Made by a program: the position numbers and the translations under genes. Of a stretch of DNA of 41,120 nt, positions 6,994 through 16,536 are shown in pieces. The notes beneath the pieces are model-generated. The model was not told the origin of the DNA. It ran no database searches and saw only the letters and a list, made by a program, of their open reading frames with translations. Source of the DNA: Ornithinimicrobium cerasi. Its GTDB lineage: Bacteria > Actinomycetota > Actinomycetes > Actinomycetales > Dermatophilaceae. The DNA is taken from positions 1-41,120 of the forward strand of contig NZ_QZMN01000017.1 of the NCBI RefSeq assembly GCF_003702705.1, written 5' to 3'. Positions within the stretch are counted from its first letter, which is position 1. Each line of letters begins with the position of its first letter.

Positions 6994-7809
6994 ATGGGCG
7001 GAGCCTCAGGTGGGACAGACCTGCTCCGGGCCAGCCATCCTGGGCCCACCGTGGCGGTCACCCTGCTGACCGCACTGCTGGCCGTCGCAGCCGGCACCGG
7101 CTGGGAGCGTGGGGTGCTGGTGACGACGGCGGTCCTGGCCGGGCAGCCCACCATCGGCTGGTCCAACGACCTGGTGGACGCCGATCGTGACCGTTCCGCG
7201 GGGCGCACGGACAAGCCCGTGGCGATGGGCTCCGTCTCGCGGGCGAGTGTCAACGTTGCCCTCCTGCTCTCCGTCGTCGCCGCGGTGGCGCTGTCAGCCA
7301 TGACCGGGTGGCCCTCGGCGAGCGTCCACCTGGTGCTGGTCGTCGGGTCCGGGTGGGCCTACAACCTCGGCCTCAAGAGCACCGTCTGGTCGTGGGTGCC
7401 GTACGCGATGGCCTTCGGCTCCCTCCCCGCTGTGGTATGGCTCGCGGCGGACCCAGCCTCACTGTCCCTGCCGCCTGCCTGGATGATGCTCGTGGGCGCG
7501 GTTCTCGGGGTGGGCGCCCACCTCTTGAACGTCCTGCCCGACCTGGCCGACGACGAGCTCACCGGCGTCCGCGGTCTGCCGCACCGGCTCGGCGAACGCA
7601 GGGTACGCCTGCTCGCCCCGCTGCTGCTCCTCGCCGGTGCTGTCGTGGTCGTCCTCGCCCCCCGTGATGACATACCGGTATGGGCATGGGCGGCACTGGC
7701 GGTCTCCGCGGTGCTGGCCGCCCTGGCCTGGGCCACCCGCGGCTCCACGCCGTTCATAGCGGCGATGCTGCTGGCTCTGGTCAACGTGGCGGGACTGGTG
7801 CTGCGCTGA
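6994..7809 (+). CDS. UbiA-family prenyltransferase
   Basis: This 271-aa polytopic membrane protein has about eight hydrophobic helices. It carries the two aspartate motifs of the UbiA superfamily: NDLVDADRD at residues 58-66 in the loop after helix 2 and DLADDELTG at about 182-190. These coordinate Mg2+ and the diphosphate of a polyprenyl donor, which is transferred to an aromatic or other lipid acceptor (menaquinone, heme O, carotenoid end-group or archaeal-type lipids in various family members). The exact acceptor cannot be told. The protein is close to the smaller UbiA members and is not obviously MenA or CtaB by motif. It is transcribed alone, probably leaderless. A related repeat precedes both this gene and the phytoene-dehydrogenase-like gene at 16537, so an isoprenoid theme is possible. 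Confidence 0.85.
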   Translation: MGGASGGTDLLRASHPGPTVAVTLLTALLAVAAGTGWERGVLVTTAVLAGQPTIGWSNDLVDADRDRSAGRTDKPVAMGSVSRASVNVALLLSVVAAVALSAMTGWPSASVHLVLVVGSGWAYNLGLKSTVWSWVPYAMAFGSLPAVVWLAADPASLSLPPAWMMLVGAVLGVGAHLLNVLPDLADDELTGVRGLPHRLGERRVRLLAPLLLLAGAVVVVLAPRDDIPVWAWAALAVSAVLAALAWATRGSTPFIAAMLLALVNVAGLVLR

Positions 7810-8159
7810 GGAGCACGGCGCAGCTCGGCGGTGGATGCCGGCGGCCCTCTTCAGCGCTCGACGGGTGTGACGACGTAGGGAGTCACGCTGTCTACGACCC
7901 GACTTCCCCAGCGCGCACAAAGTCAGGTCGACGCTACCTCTCTGTCGACGTGGTGCCGCTCCCCCAGAAGCGAGACGACAGCCCTCAGCATGGCTCCCGT
8001 CAGGATCGTGAACGCAGTGCGGGAAGAACAGAACGAGGACACAGGTCGCCGTGTGGCTCAGGGCGTGGAAGAGAGCGGCGAGCGCGATCGAGCCGCTTGG
8101 GCGGCACACCATGCATTGTCGCTAGGCCTCACGGAGCGCGGCTACTAGTTCTATTGACC
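7810..8159. other. Intergenic region, no gene seen
   Basis: About 350 bases between the UbiA gene and the insertion element. I see no convincing ORF, RNA gene or strong terminator. It ends where the IS110-type left end is thought to begin. Confidence 0.35.
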
Positions 8160-8164
8160 TCAGG

Positions 8165-8370
8165 ATCGGTGGCCGGCCAGGCTCGGTCCAGGTGGTCGGG
8201 GTGGTCGCTCGTTCGCGGCTGTCCATCCTGGTGGTGTGACTCTTTTTTTGCTTGCGCTGCCCCGGCCACCGACATGGTCGGGAGAGCCTCAAGAAGGGAA
8301 TGCTCTGCTGGTAGTAGCGGTGCCCTCCTGACCGACCCAACATGTCGAGGTCGTCAGGAAGGAACAGCTC
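8165..8370 (+). ncRNA. Possible bridge-RNA region of the IS110 element
   Basis: In IS110 elements the non-coding end upstream of the transposase gene encodes a structured bridge RNA whose loops pair with target and donor DNA. The matching position here lacks coding signal and contains a hairpin at 8326-8359, where CCTGAC pairs with GTCAGG and an inner CGAC pairs with GTCG. That hairpin also abuts the transposase ribosome site (GGAAGGA), so it could instead control translation. The assignment is by position and family knowledge only. Confidence 0.25.
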
Positions 8371-9554
8371 ATGGGCGAGCAGGAACCGGGTCCGGTCGTG
8401 ATCGGAATGGACCCGCACAAGCGCACGGTGACGATCGAGGTGATGACCCCGACCGAGCAGGTCGTCGGCCATGGCCGGTTCACGACGGATGAGGCGGGGT
8501 TACCGCGATGCTGGAGTACGCTCGGCGTTGGCCTCAGCGGACGTGGGCGATCGAGGGTTGCGAAGGGATCGGGCGGCACGTCGTGGCCCGGTTGCTGCCG
8601 CTGGCCGAGCCAGGTGGTGGACGTGCCGGCGAAGCTGTCCGCGCGGATGCGGATCTTCGCCACCGGGCAGGGCCGCAAGACCGATGACACCGACGCCCAC
8701 TCCATCGCCCTGGTCGGTGTGCGGATGGCCGGGCTGCGCAGCGTCGTCCACGACGAGCAGCTGGAGGTGCTGCGCCTGCTGGTCGACCGGCGCCGCCGGA
8801 TCGGTGAGGACCACACCCGGGTGGTGTGCCAGCTGCACGCCCTGCTGCTGGAGATCGTGCCTGGTGGGGCCAAGAAGGACCTGTCCGCGGCGCAGGCACG
8901 CAAGATCCTGGCTGGTGTCCGACCGCGTGACGTCGTGGGCAAGACCCGCAAACGCGTCGCGCTGGAGATGGGGGCCGATCTGGAGAAGACCTACCGCCGG
9001 AAGAGGCGAACAAGGAGCTCACCGAGCTCGTGGCCGCGACCGGCACCAGCCTGCTCGGACTTCATGGCATCGGTCCCTCAGGCGCTGCCCGGCTGCTGGT
9101 CGAGGTTGGTGACATCACCCGGTTCCCGACCAAGGGGCACTTCGCGTCCTGGGCCGGGACCGCGCCGGTGGACGCCTCCTCCGGCGACAACGTGCACCAA
9201 CGACTCTTCCGCGGCGGGAACCGGCACATCAACCAGGTGCTGCACATCATGGCCACCGTGCAGCTGCGCACCCGGACCACCGAAGGACGGGCCTACTACG
9301 ACCGGAAGGTCGCCGCCGGCAAGACGCCCAACGCGGCGATGCGCTGCCGGAAACGACGCCTGTCCGTCATCGTCTACCGGACCATGCTCAACCGACATCA
9401 TCACCGCTGCTGGGACGGGCCAGGGAGGACACCGGGGCGCGTCACTGTCATCCAGCGCGGCCGGCTCACAGCCCCACACCGAGACACTTCGGATCAGTCA
9501 CTTCCCGGACCCGTCACCCACCAACATAGAACCCCCCTCATGACCCCCGCTTGA
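8371..9554 (+). pseudogene. IS110-family transposase, frameshifted
   Basis: The N-terminal DEDD nuclease-like domain starts 'VVIGMDPHKRTVTIEVMTP' and includes 'KTDDTDAHSIALVGVRMAG'. The C-terminal transposase_20 domain reads 'LLGLHGIGPSGAARLLVEVG', 'RFPTKGHFASWAGTAPVDAS' and 'HINQVLHIMATVQLRTR'. Three frame changes are needed. Near 8505 the frame shifts so that 'MLEYARRWPQRTWAIEGCEG' is read. Near 8610 it returns at 'VVDVPAKLSARMR'. Near 9008 it shifts again into 'EANKELTELVAATG'. With those repaired, the protein would be about 395 aa, normal for the family. Active-site aspartates appear present, so the lesions and not residue loss inactivate it. Confidence 0.85.
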
Positions 9555-9760
9555 CACAGAAGGGAGCCATGAGCGTAAGTGGCCCGCTGGGGTCGCTGCG
9601 TGGAGGGCTAGGTGCCAGGAACCACGTTGCGCTCAAGGTCCCGAAGTATGACGCGAAGGGCCTTGTCGATACGTGAGCTGCTCTCGAGCGAGACATCTGT
9701 ACATGCGAATCTGGGACGGCCCCTTGCCTGCCCGTCACCGGCGGTGAGGTTCAAGTGTCG

Positions 9761-9775
9761 TGTCGCAAAGCGACA
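9761..9775. promoter_or_regulatory. Short palindrome upstream of the STAND gene
   Basis: TGTCGC-AAA-GCGACA is a perfect inverted repeat about 45 bases upstream of the -10-like hexamer. It could be an operator or a hairpin. No regulator gene is adjacent, so the role is open. Confidence 0.3.
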
Positions 9776-9818
9776 GCAAGACTGGAAACAAGTGAATGTG
9801 CCGGGGCCAAGTAGGGGT

Positions 9819-9824
9819 TAGATT
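9819..9824 (+). promoter_or_regulatory. -10-like hexamer of the STAND NTPase gene
   Basis: TAGATT lies seven bases before ATG 9832 and 70 bases before ATG 9895. Either the mRNA is leaderless and starts at 9832, or it has a leader of about 63 bases and uses ATG 9895 with its GGGAGGG site. Confidence 0.35.
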
Positions 9825-9894
9825 GGGCTCGATGCGATCGGCTGTCCCGCATCCCTGGTCCAGCAGGTGCTTCAGGAGGGGCGACGGGAGGGTC

Positions 9895-12800
9895 ATGCGC
9901 CGAGAGTCTGTGAACACGCTTGATGCGTCCCAGTTCGAGTGGGTGTGTGCCGGCATAGCTGGAGACATCGCCTTCGACCGTGGGTTGACCCCGACTGGCC
10001 CGACCCAGGTCATGGCGCCGACAAGTGACGGTGGTATCGAGGCGAAGGTCCCCACTCGCTCAGGGGAACTGGCTGTTCAGTGCAAGGCCTACTCCGACTT
10101 TAGAAAAGAAGGGGCCAGTGTGAGGGACTCCTTCGCGACGTTCCTGGACCGGCCCGAGCAGCAGGCTGTCACCACCTACGTGTGGTGCTCTACCTCCCAC
10201 CGGACGACCGGCTCCGGGGCGGCTCCCCATCGTCGGACGGGGAACGACACGAAGGCCCTGGAAATACTTGCTGAAATGAAAACAGCTGCCCAGCAGAAGG
10301 GTCGCGACATTGAGGTAGTGATCTACTTCGCAGGGGATCTCGATCGCGTTATCCGGGAGCATCGTCCGGAGTATTTCCGGGTCATGACGTCGCTGGCTCC
10401 GATTCGCCACAACGATGTCGAGCGCTACTCGCGTGAGCGCGTCTCCGACATCCTGCGTCGCCTGGGCGGAGACGATATCCCACAATTGGAATTCCCGGTC
10501 CACGAGACTTCGGCGTTCCTGGATCGGTTAGCCAAATCTTCCAGGCCTCCGTACCTTGTGCAAACTGCGGGTATCCAGGGGCTGCTGGGCGAGGTCGATC
10601 GCCGCACGCGAAAGACTTCCTCGGATCCGGTGATTGGCGGGGAGTGGCATGCTAACGCCCCTCGTATCCTGGAGATCGGAGCACGCCTCAGGGGGCGGTC
10701 GGAGGTCCCGGCCGGCGAGTTGGCGACGCTCTTGACCGAGTTGCGTGCCGAAGCCGAGGCCGGCTTCGAGGCAGTGACCACGGTCCTGGGCGCGCATCGT
10801 GGCCATGCCGTGGACGACTCAGCAATGGGCTTTCAGAACCGTTGGATGAAGGAGCTGATCCTTGGTTACTCGAAGTCGCTTCTGACGCTCATCGAGAGCG
10901 TGGATCTGTTGAGTTCCGAGGCCAATGCTGCCCTCACCCGACGGCTTCTTGTGACTGGACGGTGGGGGACCGGCAAGAGTTATCAGCTCGCGCATTACAC
11001 AGGTCGTGCGTTGGACCTTGGCACTCCGGTGCTACTCCTTCGCGCGCGCGACTTTACCCGTGCGGATGCGGCGATTCTTGCGCAGCCTTGGCGAGAGAGT
11101 TTCGACAACGAGAATGCCGAGCCCAAGGTCTTCGCGGCAATGCTCGATGCAATCGGGCATCAGACACGAAAGTCGCCCAACGGCGGTGCGGCGCACCGGC
11201 AGCTGGTCCTCATCATCGACGGCTTGAACGAGGCGGCAATCACGGACGTACCCGCGGCGCTCGACCGCCTACAACAAACAATCAGTCCGTTCCCGAACAT
11301 TCGGTTAGTGGTGTCCACGCGACGGGACCGGGGCCCTGTCGCGGACGACTCGATGCCCGAGCTCATGCACGAAGCGCCGGAGCGTGTGACGATGGCGCGC
11401 TCGGTAACGCGCGCCCTGAACGCGGCTCCGGGCACGTCGTGGCACGCTGCGGTGACCAACCCTCTTCTTGCGTCCATCGCCGTCAGGGTGCTCACAGCAA
11501 GCCCCGGTACAGCCGACCAATTACTGACCAGGGCAAGCCTCTTTGATGCGTGGAGGGACCTACTGATCGACGAGGCGGCAGCCGGGCTCGGACAACCGTC
11601 TGCCACGATCCAACGCGTGATCACGCAGATCACGACGATCACCGAGTCCGGGGGCGCCAGCACCGTGGCCGACATCGCGGCCGCCGCGCACCTATCGTCC
11701 GACGTCGTCGACCGCATCGTGCAGCGGCTCGCGGATGAAGGATTCCTCGAAACCAGTTCAACGTCCGACGACCTAGTCCGATTCCGCTGGGAAGCCATCA
11801 GCGACATGCAACGGGCCCGCCACGCGATCCGCACCGGTGCGACCAATGCGTTCATCAAGGACGCCCCCGAAGACCGCAAACTCGCACTCCTCGCCCTGAT
11901 CGCTGAACTTCTGCCCACCGAAATCCCTCCACGAGAGCTTCCTGAGCTTCGACTGCCGTCTGTCACAGGGACGCAGCAGGCTAGGGCCTTCGCGCGGTCA
12001 CTAAGCACACGAGCCAACGAAACTGTTCGAGCGACGACGCTGAAACTGGCAGCGGCGACACTCCGGGGCGAGGATACAACGGCAAGCCAGCTCGTCATCT
12101 GGTCGGTGCTTAGCATGCCACGTCGCACCAAACTCGGCTTCGCATGGCTCAATGAACAGTTGCGGTCCACCACAATCGGTGACCGGTCCCAGTTCTGGCC
12201 TTCGGGGTTGGAGCAACTTTGCGAGGGGTCCCAATCCGATCAGCAAGCCATGGAGCAGCTACTCAGCTGGTACGCCACCGACCTTTTTCCGTCGCTGACG
12301 GCGGAAGACGCGGGTTCGGCGATCGAGATGCTGGCCTGGATGGGTTGCTCCACCATGGCGACCGAACTACCGGCCTTCGCGATCCGCAGTCTGGTAGAGA
12401 TCCTCTTGAGCTACCCGGAACAGTTCAAGACGGTCTTAGAGCGGCTTCGAGACGTGGACGATGACCACCCTCGTGACGCCCTCTTCACCGCGGCCTCGGG
12501 CCTGATCACGCGATGGCCCGCATCGGGGGCCGCACAGATCATACGAGATGCCTGTCGACATGTGCGGGACCATGGCTCCGGCCCCTTGTCGTTCCGCTCC
12601 CTCTCAGCCATGCGCGACGTTGTCAGCCCGGACGTGCCGTTGCATCGATTTTTGCGGGAATCACTTCCTGACCTTGGACCTACCCCCTGGCGCCGCGTGA
12701 GGCTCCTCATCCGCGACGAGGACCGCGCGGTCTTCGCCGACGGACGCGACCAGCGTCAGGCCGAACGATTCGAAACATGTATCCTCCGGACCTTCGGCAT

Positions 12801-13047
12801 CGGAGCAAGGCATCGAGGGGTCGTGCTGGACGATAAGCCCCATTCCGGCGACTACAGCCACGGGCGGTCCTTGGTCTTCGGGCGCTGGCTTGCCAAACAG
12901 TACGCCGAGCATCCCGCAGGCCGCCGCATATCGGTGGGATGGGTTCCCGTAAAGGCAGGAACCCCGAAGAACCCGGAGGTCAACTTCTTGGACGACCCAG
13001 GGAACGCCTGGGACTGGTACGTGGACCAACCCAACCTTTGGCGCTGA
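9895..13047 (+). CDS. Mrr-like nuclease / STAND NTPase, candidate anti-phage protein
   Basis: A 1050-aa protein from ATG 9895 (21 aa longer if ATG 9832 is used). Residues 10-130 look like an Mrr-type restriction endonuclease domain: 'SDGGIEAKVPT' at 44-54 and 'LAVQCKAYSDF' at 59-69 supply the D...QxK core of a PD-(D/E)xK nuclease. A NTPase domain follows, with Walker A GRWGTGKS near 354-361 and Walker B 'LVLIIDGLNEA' near 436-446. The acidic 'DGLNE' form is typical of STAND/NACHT ATPases. A winged-helix-like segment, 'ADIAAAAHLSSDVVDRIVQR', follows near 610, then about 350 residues of helical, repeat-like sequence that could be the sensor. Nuclease-STAND-sensor is the layout of Avs-type antiviral proteins, which detect a phage protein, oligomerise and cut DNA. 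Exact subfamily is not identified. The gene overlaps the next by one base (TGATG). Confidence 0.75.
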   Translation: MRRESVNTLDASQFEWVCAGIAGDIAFDRGLTPTGPTQVMAPTSDGGIEAKVPTRSGELAVQCKAYSDFRKEGASVRDSFATFLDRPEQQAVTTYVWCSTSHRTTGSGAAPHRRTGNDTKALEILAEMKTAAQQKGRDIEVVIYFAGDLDRVIREHRPEYFRVMTSLAPIRHNDVERYSRERVSDILRRLGGDDIPQLEFPVHETSAFLDRLAKSSRPPYLVQTAGIQGLLGEVDRRTRKTSSDPVIGGEWHANAPRILEIGARLRGRSEVPAGELATLLTELRAEAEAGFEAVTTVLGAHRGHAVDDSAMGFQNRWMKELILGYSKSLLTLIESVDLLSSEANAALTRRLLVTGRWGTGKSYQLAHYTGRALDLGTPVLLLRARDFTRADAAILAQPWRESFDNENAEPKVFAAMLDAIGHQTRKSPNGGAAHRQLVLIIDGLNEAAITDVPAALDRLQQTISPFPNIRLVVSTRRDRGPVADDSMPELMHEAPERVTMARSVTRALNAAPGTSWHAAVTNPLLASIAVRVLTASPGTADQLLTRASLFDAWRDLLIDEAAAGLGQPSATIQRVITQITTITESGGASTVADIAAAAHLSSDVVDRIVQRLADEGFLETSSTSDDLVRFRWEAISDMQRARHAIRTGATNAFIKDAPEDRKLALLALIAELLPTEIPPRELPELRLPSVTGTQQARAFARSLSTRANETVRATTLKLAAATLRGEDTTASQLVIWSVLSMPRRTKLGFAWLNEQLRSTTIGDRSQFWPSGLEQLCEGSQSDQQAMEQLLSWYATDLFPSLTAEDAGSAIEMLAWMGCSTMATELPAFAIRSLVEILLSYPEQFKTVLERLRDVDDDHPRDALFTAASGLITRWPASGAAQIIRDACRHVRDHGSGPLSFRSLSAMRDVVSPDVPLHRFLRESLPDLGPTPWRRVRLLIRDEDRAVFADGRDQRQAERFETCILRTFGIGARHRGVVLDDKPHSGDYSHGRSLVFGRWLAKQYAEHPAGRRISVGWVPVKAGTPKNPEVNFLDDPGNAWDWYVDQPNLWR

Positions 13048-13778
13048 TGCTTCGAGGCTCAGACACCGTTCAGCCCATCACATGGTGGGCCGTTCAGCAC
13101 CTCCCGGCCACAGATTCCGGCAGCGCACTGATGGTCACCGATCCAGACGGTGCGGAATGGGTCGTGATCCAGGGTGGGTTCCGGTTCCTCTCACCGCTTC
13201 CCGAGCCCACGGCGGAGGGGCCCTTACTGCGGCTAGGGCGCGGACTTTGGATAGGTGGCGGGAATGACGATGGACGGCCCGAACCGGGCAGTACGCGAGA
13301 GGAATTCGTCGCCGTTGATGATGCCACCTTGGTCACGCTGCCCGGTAAAGAGATCGGTGGTCAATGTGAGGAAGTCGGGCGACGCAGCCGATTCGCCGAC
13401 AGCTTCTCTCACAAGATGAGAGATGGAAGGCTGATCGCGCACACGCTCACGGGCGGAATCGAGCCCGTTACAGCCAGCCTGCTGGAATGGCTCGGTGCGC
13501 GCTGGACCGGCTGGGGCCTGGACTGCATCGACGCGGAAGCCACGTTGGTCATCACGGATCCCGCGGTTGGAAAGGATGGCCCACACGCGGTGCTCGTGCG
13601 CAAGACACACCTTGAGGCAGCTCTGAAGTGCAGCGAGCGGCAGCTCACGGTGCAGATCACGGTCACCGATCTGCACGCTCCAATCCATCGCCGTTCAACA
13701 CCAAGGACCGTGACCCTTGACGCTAAGACGGCATGGGGGAAGTTGAGTCCCGGGAATGGCACTCGGACGCTGGCTTAG
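13047..13778 (+). CDS. Partner or detached C-terminal domain of the STAND protein
   Basis: ATG 13047 overlaps the stop codon of the STAND gene by one base, so translation is probably coupled. The 243-aa product has no membrane segment or signal. Its middle, 'LLEWLGARWTGWGLDCIDAE' then 'ATLVITDPAVGKDGPHAVLV', looks like the C-terminal domain that ends some very large bacterial STAND/NACHT proteins (a Trp-containing 'LxxxWxGxGxDxxD' block, then 'DPxxxxxGPxALLV'). This is a resemblance from memory. It may be a separate subunit that works with the NTPase, or the former tail of a single protein split by a frameshift near 13045. The region 13779-13901, between this gene and the convergent cyclase gene, holds nothing recognisable. 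Confidence 0.6.
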   Translation: MLRGSDTVQPITWWAVQHLPATDSGSALMVTDPDGAEWVVIQGGFRFLSPLPEPTAEGPLLRLGRGLWIGGGNDDGRPEPGSTREEFVAVDDATLVTLPGKEIGGQCEEVGRRSRFADSFSHKMRDGRLIAHTLTGGIEPVTASLLEWLGARWTGWGLDCIDAEATLVITDPAVGKDGPHAVLVRKTHLEAALKCSERQLTVQITVTDLHAPIHRRSTPRTVTLDAKTAWGKLSPGNGTRTLA

Positions 13779-13901
13779 CGGCTGCTATCACGCCAGGTGC
13801 CGCGGTTGAGTGGCACCCGTAGATGTCTCAGTCTCTCTGCTGAACGTCTTGCTGTTTGCCCGACCGGTAAGCACCTCATAGGAGCCGCCGCACCGATGGC
13901 A

Positions 13902-14894
13902 TCAGCCCAACGGCGGGTCTTCCTTAAGTTGTTGAGCGCCGGGTGGCTCGGTGGCAAGAGTCTCCGCACCCTCGCTGGCGATAGAGGCGTTCGCCAGGTA
14001 TTGCGCGAGGGGATCCGGCTGTACTTGTGAAAACAGTCCCGTCGTAGAGTCGGGTAGGTGCAGCTTGAACGGCCAGGCGACGTCTGAGTATAGCGCTTTG
14101 CATAAGTCGTGTATTGCCGCGGTGTCGTACTGCCAAGGCGAGAACTGGCGGAAGGCGGCAGCGATCGCGGAGTCCGCCTCAAGGTCAAGGGCAAACAATG
14201 GGTAGGTGCGCCCTCCCCATACTCCCTTTAGCCCTAGACTTTCGAGCAACATAAGATTCGAAACGTCTCTGCTCTCGCCTCTGGCGCCCTTGTCAAAGTG
14301 AAGAAGCGATATTGCATATGCGACTTCAAGAGACAGGGTCATGTACCGCTCTGTGCACTTACTGATCACCCGAAAGCCAGTATCGATACTGGGTCCGAAG
14401 TAGTCATAGAGATATCGCTGATGCGCGGGGGGAGCCTCGATGGCCTCCTGATTCAACACTACGACGTCACGGCCCGAGGTTTCAGAGGCAGGATCGCGAG
14501 GGATGGTGGACTGACTGTCTGGCCCTGGAAAAGTGGCTATGAAGGCACCGCCTTTCACGCCCAATTGGGTGTCGTCAAGATGGTTGTTCTTGTACGCGCT
14601 CATGGTCTCATGCCAGATCGTCACTGCGTCATAGATGTCCGCCTCGCTTCGTACGTCGCAGGTAAATATCAGCTCGTCTCCGACCGGCTTCCACAGTTTG
14701 AACTCTATATGCTCAGCCCCCATCGCTTTCTGCTCTAAGTAGAGCTGCTGCGGAAACTCCCGATAGAACTGAAGGAAGACCTTCTGCCACGGCGTCTCAG
14801 AACCAGGGTTTGGGCGTTGCTTGAACGCAGTTGAACCCGTCAGGTCGCATGAGAGAAAGAGTTTGCTATGGCACCCGCTTGTCTCCGTTGTCAC
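13902..14894 (-). CDS. Class III nucleotide-cyclase-like protein
   Basis: A 330-aa cytoplasmic protein starting at GTG 14894. The N-terminal half has features of class III nucleotidyl cyclases. These are a first strand with a metal-binding aspartate, 'KLFLSCDLTGSTAFK' (Asp17), and a second, 'KLWKPVGDELIFT' (Asp73), followed by 'LGVKGGAFIATFPG' where the family has its later strand. The spacing Asp17-Asp73 suits the fold, and both two-metal ligands appear kept. Residues 170-330 have no motif I recognise. Pycsar anti-phage cyclases belong to this superfamily and make cCMP or cUMP; whether this one does is inference. The gene overlaps the upstream metalloprotease gene by four bases (GTGA). Its base composition is visibly less GC-rich than the surroundings, suggesting transfer. 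Alternative: a housekeeping or inactive cyclase-like sensor. Confidence 0.6.
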   Translation of the reverse strand: MTTETSGCHSKLFLSCDLTGSTAFKQRPNPGSETPWQKVFLQFYREFPQQLYLEQKAMGAEHIEFKLWKPVGDELIFTCDVRSEADIYDAVTIWHETMSAYKNNHLDDTQLGVKGGAFIATFPGPDSQSTIPRDPASETSGRDVVVLNQEAIEAPPAHQRYLYDYFGPSIDTGFRVISKCTERYMTLSLEVAYAISLLHFDKGARGESRDVSNLMLLESLGLKGVWGGRTYPLFALDLEADSAIAAAFRQFSPWQYDTAAIHDLCKALYSDVAWPFKLHLPDSTTGLFSQVQPDPLAQYLANASIASEGAETLATEPPGAQQLKEDPPLG

Positions 14895-15385
14895 TGAAGA
14901 CCAAGTACCTGCGCCCGAACGTTAGCGGCAGCCGGACTTACGCCGAAATGGTTCGCCACTTCCCATTCGTCACTTTCCAGGCGTTGCCAGACGCGCTTGA
15001 AATCGTCCGCGGGCATGAGTAGTGCCGACGCAAAAACGTTCGCTTCCGTCTCGGCTCGGTTGCGACTACCTCGGTTGAAGATCTTGGCGCCCGTTGACTG
15101 AGAGTACAGGTAGTGCAGGAAATAGTGCCCCAATTCATGCGCCATCGTGAACCTATCGCGGCTGCGAGAAGTGAAGTGCGGCAGAAATATGGTGAATTTT
15201 CCGGGCTCGTATACAATCGTTGATTCTGGCCCGTCACCATAATCCCACTGGCCACCTAGTTCACCTATTAGGCGCTCGAGGTCAGCACGGCCGCCGGAAT
15301 AGATGGCATGGTGCTCGCCGATGCGCTGCGCGTAATCAGCGATGGCGGCATTAGTCAAGTTCGCTGGCTCAGTTGTGACACTCAC
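14891..15385 (-). CDS. ImmA/IrrE-type metalloendopeptidase
   Basis: A 164-aa protein from GTG 15385, chosen because a strong AGGAGGAG site sits eight bases upstream; the frame is open further but lacks family character. The zinc-binding HExxH motif is HELGH at residues 83-87 in 'RFTMAHELGHYFLHY'. The next helix, 'RAETEANVFASALLMP', carries the expected third-ligand glutamate and the typical 'FAsaLLMP' ending. The C-terminal part, 'VANHFGVSPAAANVRAQVLG', is the small helical domain usual in IrrE/ImmA proteins. These proteases cleave repressors (ImmR, DdrO) to switch on mobile elements or stress genes, or act as toxin and defence components. No HTH repressor is encoded beside it. The partner gene is the cyclase-like protein, overlapping by four bases, so the two are probably made together. 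Confidence 0.88.
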   Translation of the reverse strand: MSVTTEPANLTNAAIADYAQRIGEHHAIYSGGRADLERLIGELGGQWDYGDGPESTIVYEPGKFTIFLPHFTSRSRDRFTMAHELGHYFLHYLYSQSTGAKIFNRGSRNRAETEANVFASALLMPADDFKRVWQRLESDEWEVANHFGVSPAAANVRAQVLGLQ

Positions 15386-15760
15386 TTCTTGGCTCCTCCT
15401 GCGCAGCCTCGAGGCAGCGCCTGCTGGTCGCTCCCTCACGCCTACAGGATGGCATACGGTGGGGACAGACCCGCCTGGGCTCGCGGCGAGGACTCCTCCC
15501 GTAGATGCGAGGCCGACTCCTGCCCCAGCGCTGGGCCGAGGCGAGGCGGGTGGATGTGGGCCGGTTCCACCTAGGCTCGGCGTGATGGCGGCATTTGTCC
15601 TTGGCAGTAGGCTCCAAGTTAGCGCTGCGATGGGCGACCCGTACGGCGTATCGCGTCCGAGCCTCCGCCAGCGTCCTGTATTCGGCGTGTCAGCGATGTA
15701 CCGACCCTCCACGCGCGCGGGTCACAGGCAGATCCCTGATGACCGTGCGCTCATCGCGGG

Positions 15761-15776
15761 GTCGTGATGTCACGAC
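15761..15776. promoter_or_regulatory. Palindrome A (operator-like)
   Basis: GTCGTGA-TG-TCACGAC, two perfect 7-base arms around a 2-base centre. It lies about 380 bases upstream of the metalloprotease start, rather far for a simple operator. Its core resembles that of palindrome B, 54 bases away centre to centre. Confidence 0.35.
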
Positions 15777-15814
15777 CGCCGGGCGGCACTCGTTGGTTAT
15801 CCGACCCGTGGCGG

Positions 15815-15830
15815 CGTGACGACGGTCACG
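15815..15830. promoter_or_regulatory. Palindrome B (operator-like)
   Basis: CGTGAC-GACG-GTCACG, two perfect 6-base arms. CGTGA/TCACG is also the core of palindrome A, so the two may be binding sites for one dimeric regulator. Confidence 0.35.
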
Positions 15831-16207
15831 ACATCGCCACCGGGGAGACGGCCAGGAGGTTGGTAGTCCGACTCGTTATGGCCCCGCGGGTCTTACATGC
15901 AGCGGGCGGCGTCCGCCCCTCGTGCTGGCGCCACTCCCCCATCGCCAAGATCCGCCGCCTTCTTCAGTCCGCCCCTGGTGTCGTAGGTACGCGCGCGCGC
16001 CCTCGCTAGGACTCAATCCACGAGCAGCGCCCGCGCTGGCCCATCCGGGTTCTCTGCCGCGCGAGTTGCCCACCACCCCGGGAGGCACCATCTTGTGACC
16101 TCCATGGCCAGAACGTTCGATGGAACCATGCACTTCGGTTACTTCGTCCGCAGCCATCATGACCCCATCGCATGCCTGCGAGTCGCGCCGTTGCAAAACT
16201 TCGGCGA

Positions 16208-16370
16208 TAAGGCCTGACAATGCACAGCGTGAGTCGAGGCGGCGGGGAATACACCCTCACAGTCCTGACCTGCGACGATGAGCCTTGCGGCGTATGCCAG
16301 TCCGTTGACAGGCCCGATGGGCACTCTGGCTCACTTGTGCACGGTCCACCTCCCGCGGTCACCGGCGGCG
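16208..16370 (+). repeat. Copy 2 of the diverged ~160-bp repeat
   Basis: Matches 6797-6960 in the same order of blocks. On the + strand an ORF from ATG 16220 reads 'TVLTCDDEPCGVCQSVDRPD' then 'GHSGSLVHGP', with three cysteines. Copy 1 preserves pieces of this (ALTCDDTP, VCQFCDSSDGHSCSLVHGP) in two frames. It ends about 165 bases before the oxidoreductase gene. Confidence 0.65.
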
Positions 16371-16464
16371 GGGTAGCGTCCAGAGGGTAGTCCGCGCCGA
16401 ACTTGATCGTGACCCCGTCGCCCTCTGCGGCGTCCGACAGGTCCTCGGCCGGGGGTGGCAGCAT
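16371..16464 (-). pseudogene. Short coding-like fragment
   Basis: The minus strand from ATG 16464 reads MLPPPAEDLSDAAEGDGVTI and KFGADYPL with good third-position bias. It then runs into the repeat, where coding character is lost. 'VTIxFGADYPLW'-like strings occur in small actinobacterial hypothetical proteins. This is probably a fragment of such a gene cut by the repeat. Confidence 0.25.
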
Positions 16465-16536
16465 GAGACCTGAGCGAGCAGTCGCATCCCGCTAAGGGGT
16501 TCGCGTAAGGCGAGAAGATCTGGAGGGCTGGCGTCG

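Follow-up and report, generated by a model that had tools for sequence, protein, structure and literature searches.

In Ornithinimicrobium cerasi, we have identified a pair of overlapping genes that encode an ImmA/IrrE (M78) zinc protease and a class III nucleotide cyclase-like protein, and we have found that the pair recurs across bacterial phyla and in phages, with a gene for PycTM located next to it in some relatives. We propose, with a confidence that falls a little short of even, that protease and cyclase act as one unit in a horizontally mobile and so far undescribed signalling module of the conflict between phages and bacteria, which is coupled to PycTM in some lineages. The link of the family with a protease and with PycTM provides a concrete function to test: Pycsar-type signalling may extend past the pyrimidine cyclases, and one conserved gene pair would combine regulated proteolysis with nucleotide signalling.

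The gene pair and the surrounding island

The window, i.e. the whole stretch of DNA that was analysed, comprises 41,120 nucleotides (contig NZ_QZMN01000017.1). Both genes of the pair are located on its reverse strand: the protease gene (14891..15385, 164 aa; Pfam M78, E 9.3e-21) lies upstream and the cyclase-like gene (13902..14894, 330 aa, GTG start) lies downstream, with a stop/start overlap of four nucleotides, GTGA, at 14891-14894. In the list of open reading frames, the frame of the protease runs on to 15712; we have placed its start at 15385, giving 164 aa, because a Shine-Dalgarno-like GGAGGAG, recognised from the sequence (15393..15399, reverse strand), is located 7 nt ahead of the GTG at 15385, and because the protease of the closest relative (locus L011) likewise has 164 aa. 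The GC content of the pair is approximately 0.56, versus roughly 0.67-0.73 in most of the flanking windows. The overlap, the coordinates of the pair and its lower GC content agree with a preliminary description of this DNA, and the residues that it had named (Asp17, Asp73 and the HELGH motif) are all present. Scans for promoters and terminators found none, the window contains no tRNA gene and no Rfam match, and no fusion of protease and cyclase in one frame occurs among the open reading frames of the family loci examined.

The pair is situated in a segment (7806-16534), flanked by a UbiA-like gene and by one for a CrtO-like oxidoreductase, that is without similarity to the relatives compared: the DNA of L148 ceases to resemble the window at 7805 and that of L149 at 7661, and resemblance starts at 16535 in L160, in a comparison that covers approximately 1.5 kb beyond each gene and takes its left and right flanks from different genomes. 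Judging from these ends, the 8.7 kb between the flanks are likely to be one insertion. An Avs2-like nuclease-STAND gene (9796-13778, forward strand), with PADLOC Avs2 matches in both of its pieces, and an IS110-type transposase gene (8371-9543, forward strand), a probable remnant whose family match extends only over the first part of the frame, are also located here. The nuclease-STAND gene that the preliminary description had placed next to the pair is thus present, but it is convergent with the pair, outside the operon, and split over two frames; its Pfam matches of the HTH type are only sub-threshold. Six short open reading frames near the pair gave no Pfam match, so that no HTH substrate of the CapH kind, or other repressor, is found in them.

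Among the genomes of relatives, the cyclase occurs in one of 59, and the protease (E up to 1e-20) in one of the 32 genomes of the genus; the prevalence in the sample of the phylum is one of 396 genomes. In all three cases, the genome is the window's own, which also contains a cNMP-binding domain in two places.

Predicted folds and active sites of the two proteins

The protease has the zinc ligands of the HELGH motif (H83, E84, H87) and a probable third ligand, E112; of 68 paired loci, 67 retain HExxH and all retain the Glu ligand. Its longer open reading frame matches the PADLOC capP model (E 9.7e-26), and its AlphaFold model (pLDDT 95.4) has CapP (PDB ID: 7t5t) as its best structural match, with PprI also among the best. 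The target-normalised TM scores of the 164-aa protease, 0.38 with CapP (278 aa) and 0.42 with the PprI chain (240 aa), are as expected if the modelled protein shares only the protease part with the two structures. In the predicted fold and by Pfam, nothing is recognised beyond the M78 fold and a helical end, i.e. no nucleotide-binding domain and no GAF-like C-terminal domain; according to passages of PMC10904395, PprI needs such a domain in order to sense ssDNA, and PprI, like CapP, is a regulator that acts by cleaving a repressor. A search of 50,697 phage records with the protease (E up to 1e-12) has returned three records, all of them Orf2 of phage LE1, which is the partner of a family cyclase; the protease of phage phiC2 is out of reach at E 1e-12.

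Neither Pfam nor PADLOC nor NCBIfam gave a match for the 330-aa protein (E up to 1), and the two PHROGs families that match it are of uncharacterised function. Its fold is a predicted one, because the sequence search of the PDB was weak: profile A2 gave one match, Rv1900c (E 0.93), with the motifs in register. The AlphaFold model, obtained with 57 family members as input (pLDDT 91.7, pTM 0.88), matches 113 PDB chains in Foldseek (E up to 0.001), and each of the 50 that were listed is a class III cyclase, with 1wc4 (E 1.2e-7) as the best of them. The model supports a class III cyclase fold in which the metal-binding aspartate pair, D17 and D73, is intact, and so the structure prediction is favourable to the cyclase that the preliminary description had recognised.

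The codons of the first metal aspartate, D17 (14844..14846), and of the second, D73 (14676..14678), are both on the reverse strand; at each of the two positions, all 110 family sequences that have a residue have Asp. Four residues ahead of D73, in the motif W-K-x-x-G-D-E, is located K69 (Lys in 105 and Arg in 5 of 110 sequences), which we take to be the base-specifying lysine from its place in class III cyclases. The position of the aspartate that specifies ATP together with this lysine is occupied by D164 (codon 14403..14405, reverse strand; Asp in 100 and Glu in 11 of 111 sequences), both residues being assigned by motif spacing, without side-chain superposition. No variation is seen at E74 (110 of 110 sequences that have a residue at this position) or at K114 (111 of 111), and position 223 is occupied by Lys in 103 sequences and by Arg in 7. 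In the transition-state region, D171-R175 (D-T-G-F-R, 14370..14384, reverse strand), the arginine of the usual pair is kept (R175), while Asp (D171) replaces the asparagine; this stretch is part of the search pattern, so that its conservation is partly by construction.

Among the class III adenylyl cyclases, Ma1120 and Rv1900c have the same fold, and the spacing of D164/D171/R175 equals that of D157/A164/R168 in Ma1120, where, according to passages of PMC4215837, Lys 101 and Asp 157 specify ATP and an alanine (A164) occupies the asparagine position, yet the enzyme is an active cyclase. The window protein differs from these two enzymes in that it has no Pfam match, has Asp at the asparagine position and has 98 residues after a conserved YP. 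The Lys/Asp motifs, combined with the Ma1120 spacing, point to ATP as the likeliest substrate, a motif-based prediction that we hold to be reasonably probable; that the protein is a competent cyclase is very probable.

The C-terminal tail of the cyclase (residues 307-330, 13905..13976, reverse strand) is modelled with low confidence (mean pLDDT of its final three blocks: 75, 67 and 66) and ends in DPPLG, with similar endings in several close actinobacterial relatives. The median number of residues after the YP is 112 in 66 paired members versus 84 in 43 unpaired members (L117, L144 and L089 are left out), and the median charge of the last 40 residues is -5 in 68 paired versus 0 in 43 unpaired members, with core charges of -4 and -6; both comparisons ignore kinship, and the differences may reflect ancestry only. 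The longer and more acidic tail of the paired members is a lead for a possible site of contact with, or cleavage by, the protease. In L009, L083, L111 and L142, the cyclase has a NUDIX-looking C-terminal extension, and all four loci also have PycTM; the likeness to NUDIX comes from one Pfam NUDIX match among the 57 members and from a weak PHROG match for phiC2. A match to PDC-S07 was rejected after it had been traced to the C-terminal region, not to the cyclase, of three members.

Conservation of the pairing and the neighbouring genes

By tblastn and pattern scans, relatives were found on a Mycolicibacterium plasmid, on Leptospira plasmids, in the Leptospira phage LE1 and in the C. difficile phages phiC2 and phiCD27. 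The loci compared comprise 80 from one-genome-per-species contigs (out of 164 confirmed ones) and 55 from viral contigs; the genome scan used the region of D171-R175 only and the viral scan used the same region together with W[KR]xxGDE, so that conservation there is partly by construction. Because the viral set is rich in near-identical C. difficile phages, counts are given by distinct sequence, the window included. An ImmA/IrrE gene is located directly upstream of the cyclase, on the same strand, in 69 of the 112 distinct sequences and is not found there in the other 43, two of which (L026 and L105) are cut by the end of the contig; by locus, 40 of the 80 genome loci and 53 of the 55 viral loci are paired. 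Actinobacteria, Proteobacteria, Verrucomicrobia, Clostridium and spirochaetes, Treponema among them, are named in the record titles of the paired loci; the single locus from Acidobacteria (L088) is unpaired. The gap between protease and cyclase is within 30 nt in 58 of 68 paired loci (L003, also paired, is left out of the counts of 68).

In a cyclase tree of 108 sequences, from which L026, L105, L144 and L089 are left out, the unpaired members are found in two proteobacterial clades (16 and 22 sequences) and as three singles; the pairing requires 5 parsimony changes on this tree, versus at least 26 in 500 shuffles. The tree distances of protease and cyclase are correlated (r 0.85 over 68 loci, versus a maximum of 0.17 in 1000 permutations), with shared ancestry contributing to the correlation. 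The recurrence of the pair across phyla is more than chance, and the comparison of neighbourhoods is favourable to the conserved pair that the preliminary description had supposed; the pairing is old, and it is wider than could be seen from the window. The protease and the cyclase almost certainly form a functional partnership.

Clustering of the neighbouring genes has revealed no third gene that is common to all paired loci. Two further viral scans found nothing, and another gave 48 new locus ids, 23 of them with PycTM by a home-made profile, the contig names of which are those of contigs already in the set. In L084, L087, L102 and L108 (spirochaete and viral loci), an HTH-looking gene precedes the pair in the same orientation. 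The relatives are annotated as hypothetical even in the well-studied phages phiC2 and LE1, and in the open-licence literature we found no paper on the pair, nor on its occurrence in either of these phages.

In eight of 68 paired loci (L009 and L123 are near-identical), a PycTM gene adjoins the pair at a distance of -4 to 63 nt; the remaining 60 have none in the flanking DNA examined. The preliminary description had regarded the pair as being without a membrane effector: as to PycTM, this holds for the window's own genome, where none was found, but not for the family in general. Four of the PycTM proteins were tested against Pfam PF18967 and are above its curated cut-off (E 1.4e-7 to 3e-12); among 150 neighbour proteins of the paired representative loci, the window left out, seven match PF18967 at E up to 1e-4, and PADLOC PycTM gives the same result. 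The PycTM gene of L117, which the automatic list had missed, was added to this set by hand in place of another protein. In the 43 unpaired loci, PycTM was not found with a home-made profile that was built from seven of the eight. The PycTM loci occur on three branches: L117, the sisters L074 and L075, and a clade of ten sequences, of clostridial type or from Leptospira, five of which have PycTM, the Leptospira members there being without it. In L074, from Methylomonas, the genes for PycTM, protease and cyclase form a three-gene operon. Five of the PycTM genes are co-directional with the pair, and three are convergent and hence outside the operon. The adjacency of PycTM to the pair is hardly chance, because only nine of 296 genomes sampled from the window's phylum hold PycTM above the cut-off, but the adjacent cases come from phyla other than this background sample.

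Ten proteins near eight pairs, picked by eye and with no control set, were also compared with PADLOC models. Seven of them matched: GajA and GajB (L013), PD-Lambda-2_C (L016 and L018), SIR2 (L020), dGTPase (L014) and AbiD (phiC2); the three picks from L092, L049 and L011 were without match. The AbiF of C. difficile prophages is the subject of PMC12373285, the main text of which contains neither the term cyclase nor the term Pycsar.

Comparison with known systems and interpretation

With Pycsar, the pair shares the class III cyclase fold and, in the eight loci described above, the adjacent PycTM. The differences are located both in the partner, which is here an ImmA/IrrE protease, in a genome without PycTM, and in the cyclase itself: none of the 57 members matches the Pycsar cyclase models of PADLOC at E up to 0.1, the coverage of the five PycC clades by PADLOC being taken as is. 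The window cyclase has Ser (S15) two residues before D17 and Lys (K69) four residues before D73; according to passages of PMC11224242, EaPycC has Phe two before the first metal Asp and Arg four before the second, while BcPycC uses Y50, D94 and R97, which corresponds to Tyr/Asp at the two positions with its metal positions being inferred. The pyrimidine signature is not uniform among the PycC proteins described there, as AnPycC (clade D) has F60, K104 and F109.

CapH/CapP, from CBASS and other immune operons, resembles the pair in its M78 protease with zinc ligands, CapP being the best structural match, but no CapH was found beside the pair, the protease is shorter and lacks the C-terminal domain, and the partner is a cyclase, not a repressor. 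ImmA of ICEBs1 or phi105 is a protease that cuts the element's own repressor; the ImmR/ImmA system of ICEBs1 and PprI-DdrO likewise have an M78 protease, and the window protease is ImmA-sized and its family is found on mobile elements, but the window pair is without a repressor partner. DUF2652, which is also an uncharacterised class III-like family, matches one of the 57 members weakly (E 0.05) and differs by its Lys-Glu or Glu-Lys/Arg pairs, according to passages of PMC4886424, in the main text of which the terms metallo and peptidase are absent.

The mechanism that we infer for the proposed module, its trigger, catalysis, product, direction of control and anti-phage role included, would begin with a rival phage or element that disturbs the cell, upon which the cyclase would make a cyclic mononucleotide, with ATP as the likeliest substrate; the protease would be the switch that gates the cyclase, perhaps through cleavage of its flexible tail or of a bound inhibitor; the target of the nucleotide would be PycTM, in loci that have it, or else a receptor that is encoded elsewhere. 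A role in conflict with phages or other elements is, by itself, probable, and whether the protease acts above or below the cyclase we judge to be nearly an even choice. A protease-gated form of second-messenger immunity, where proteolysis and an ATP-type cyclase would control each other in a two-protein unit carried by phages, plasmids and islands of several phyla, and PycTM would be one interchangeable output, is possible, though doubtful. To our knowledge, it would be the first cyclase-based defence to combine a dedicated protease with a cyclase of the purine mononucleotide type. Counting against the proposed module are the Asp in place of Asn, the lack of PycTM in the window's own genome, the 60 of 68 paired loci without PycTM, the three convergent PycTM genes among the eight and the location of five of the eight PycTM loci in one clade; our estimates are unchanged by the number of PycTM lineages, because they are based on the adjacency of PycTM.

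The protease could, alternatively, be the effector, as in the main model of the preliminary description: the product of the cyclase, or the nucleotide-loaded cyclase, would activate it, and it would then cut host or phage proteins. As no third gene is common to the paired loci, the protease is the only obvious adjoining output in most of them; however, a protease of 164 aa with no visible nucleotide receptor, which is still there where PycTM is present, and the nature of PprI and CapP as repressor-cutting regulators (passages of PMC10904395) make this rather unlikely. A switch of lysogeny or plasmid immunity, where the protease would cut the repressor of the element and the cyclase would sense the state of the cell, e.g. 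ATP, and so control induction, would suit the phiC2 pair, located within a few kilobases of genes for integrase and repressor, the LE1 pair, located near a ParA-like gene in a 5.3-kb record that notes Orf2 as being like the phi105 immunity repressor, and a cluster of neighbouring genes that spans eight loci, among them LE1 and a Leptospira plasmid, and is of HTH type by record annotation. We nevertheless judge such a switch to be unlikely: no repressor family is widespread (HTH_3, HTH_19 and HTH_31 each occur in three of the 150 neighbour proteins), the six short open reading frames near the window pair contain no Pfam repressor, and the adjacent PycTM genes are left unexplained.

It is improbable that the cyclase-like protein acts by binding alone, without production of a cyclic nucleotide; the change of the active-site Asn to Asp would agree with this, as would a protease without the GAF-like domain that PprI needs for the sensing of ssDNA (passages of PMC10904395), but the metal Asp pair, the Lys/Asp pair, the Arg and the Lys are kept beyond the need of binding, and Ma1120 is an active cyclase with Ala at the Asn position (passages of PMC4215837). 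That unrelated accessory genes have come together in islands by chance deserves almost no credence: none of the other genomes sampled from the genus has the window pair, which adjoins a transposase remnant, as hitch-hiking genes might, but order and spacing are kept across phyla and the two trees are correlated, and the tree correlation and the parsimony count already contradict such a coincidence.

Two variations of the arrangement are mentioned here. On a Mycolicibacterium plasmid (L004, 2623-3974) and on a Mycobacterium contig (L031), two tandem ImmA/IrrE genes are located ahead of the cyclase. Among the unpaired members, L007 and 37 loci between L032 and L085, mostly from Phenylobacterium, Caulobacteraceae and sphingomonads, belong to the two proteobacterial clades, which perhaps make a different use of the cyclase family; 14 of these loci share a neighbouring gene that is annotated as a PP2C phosphatase in L007.
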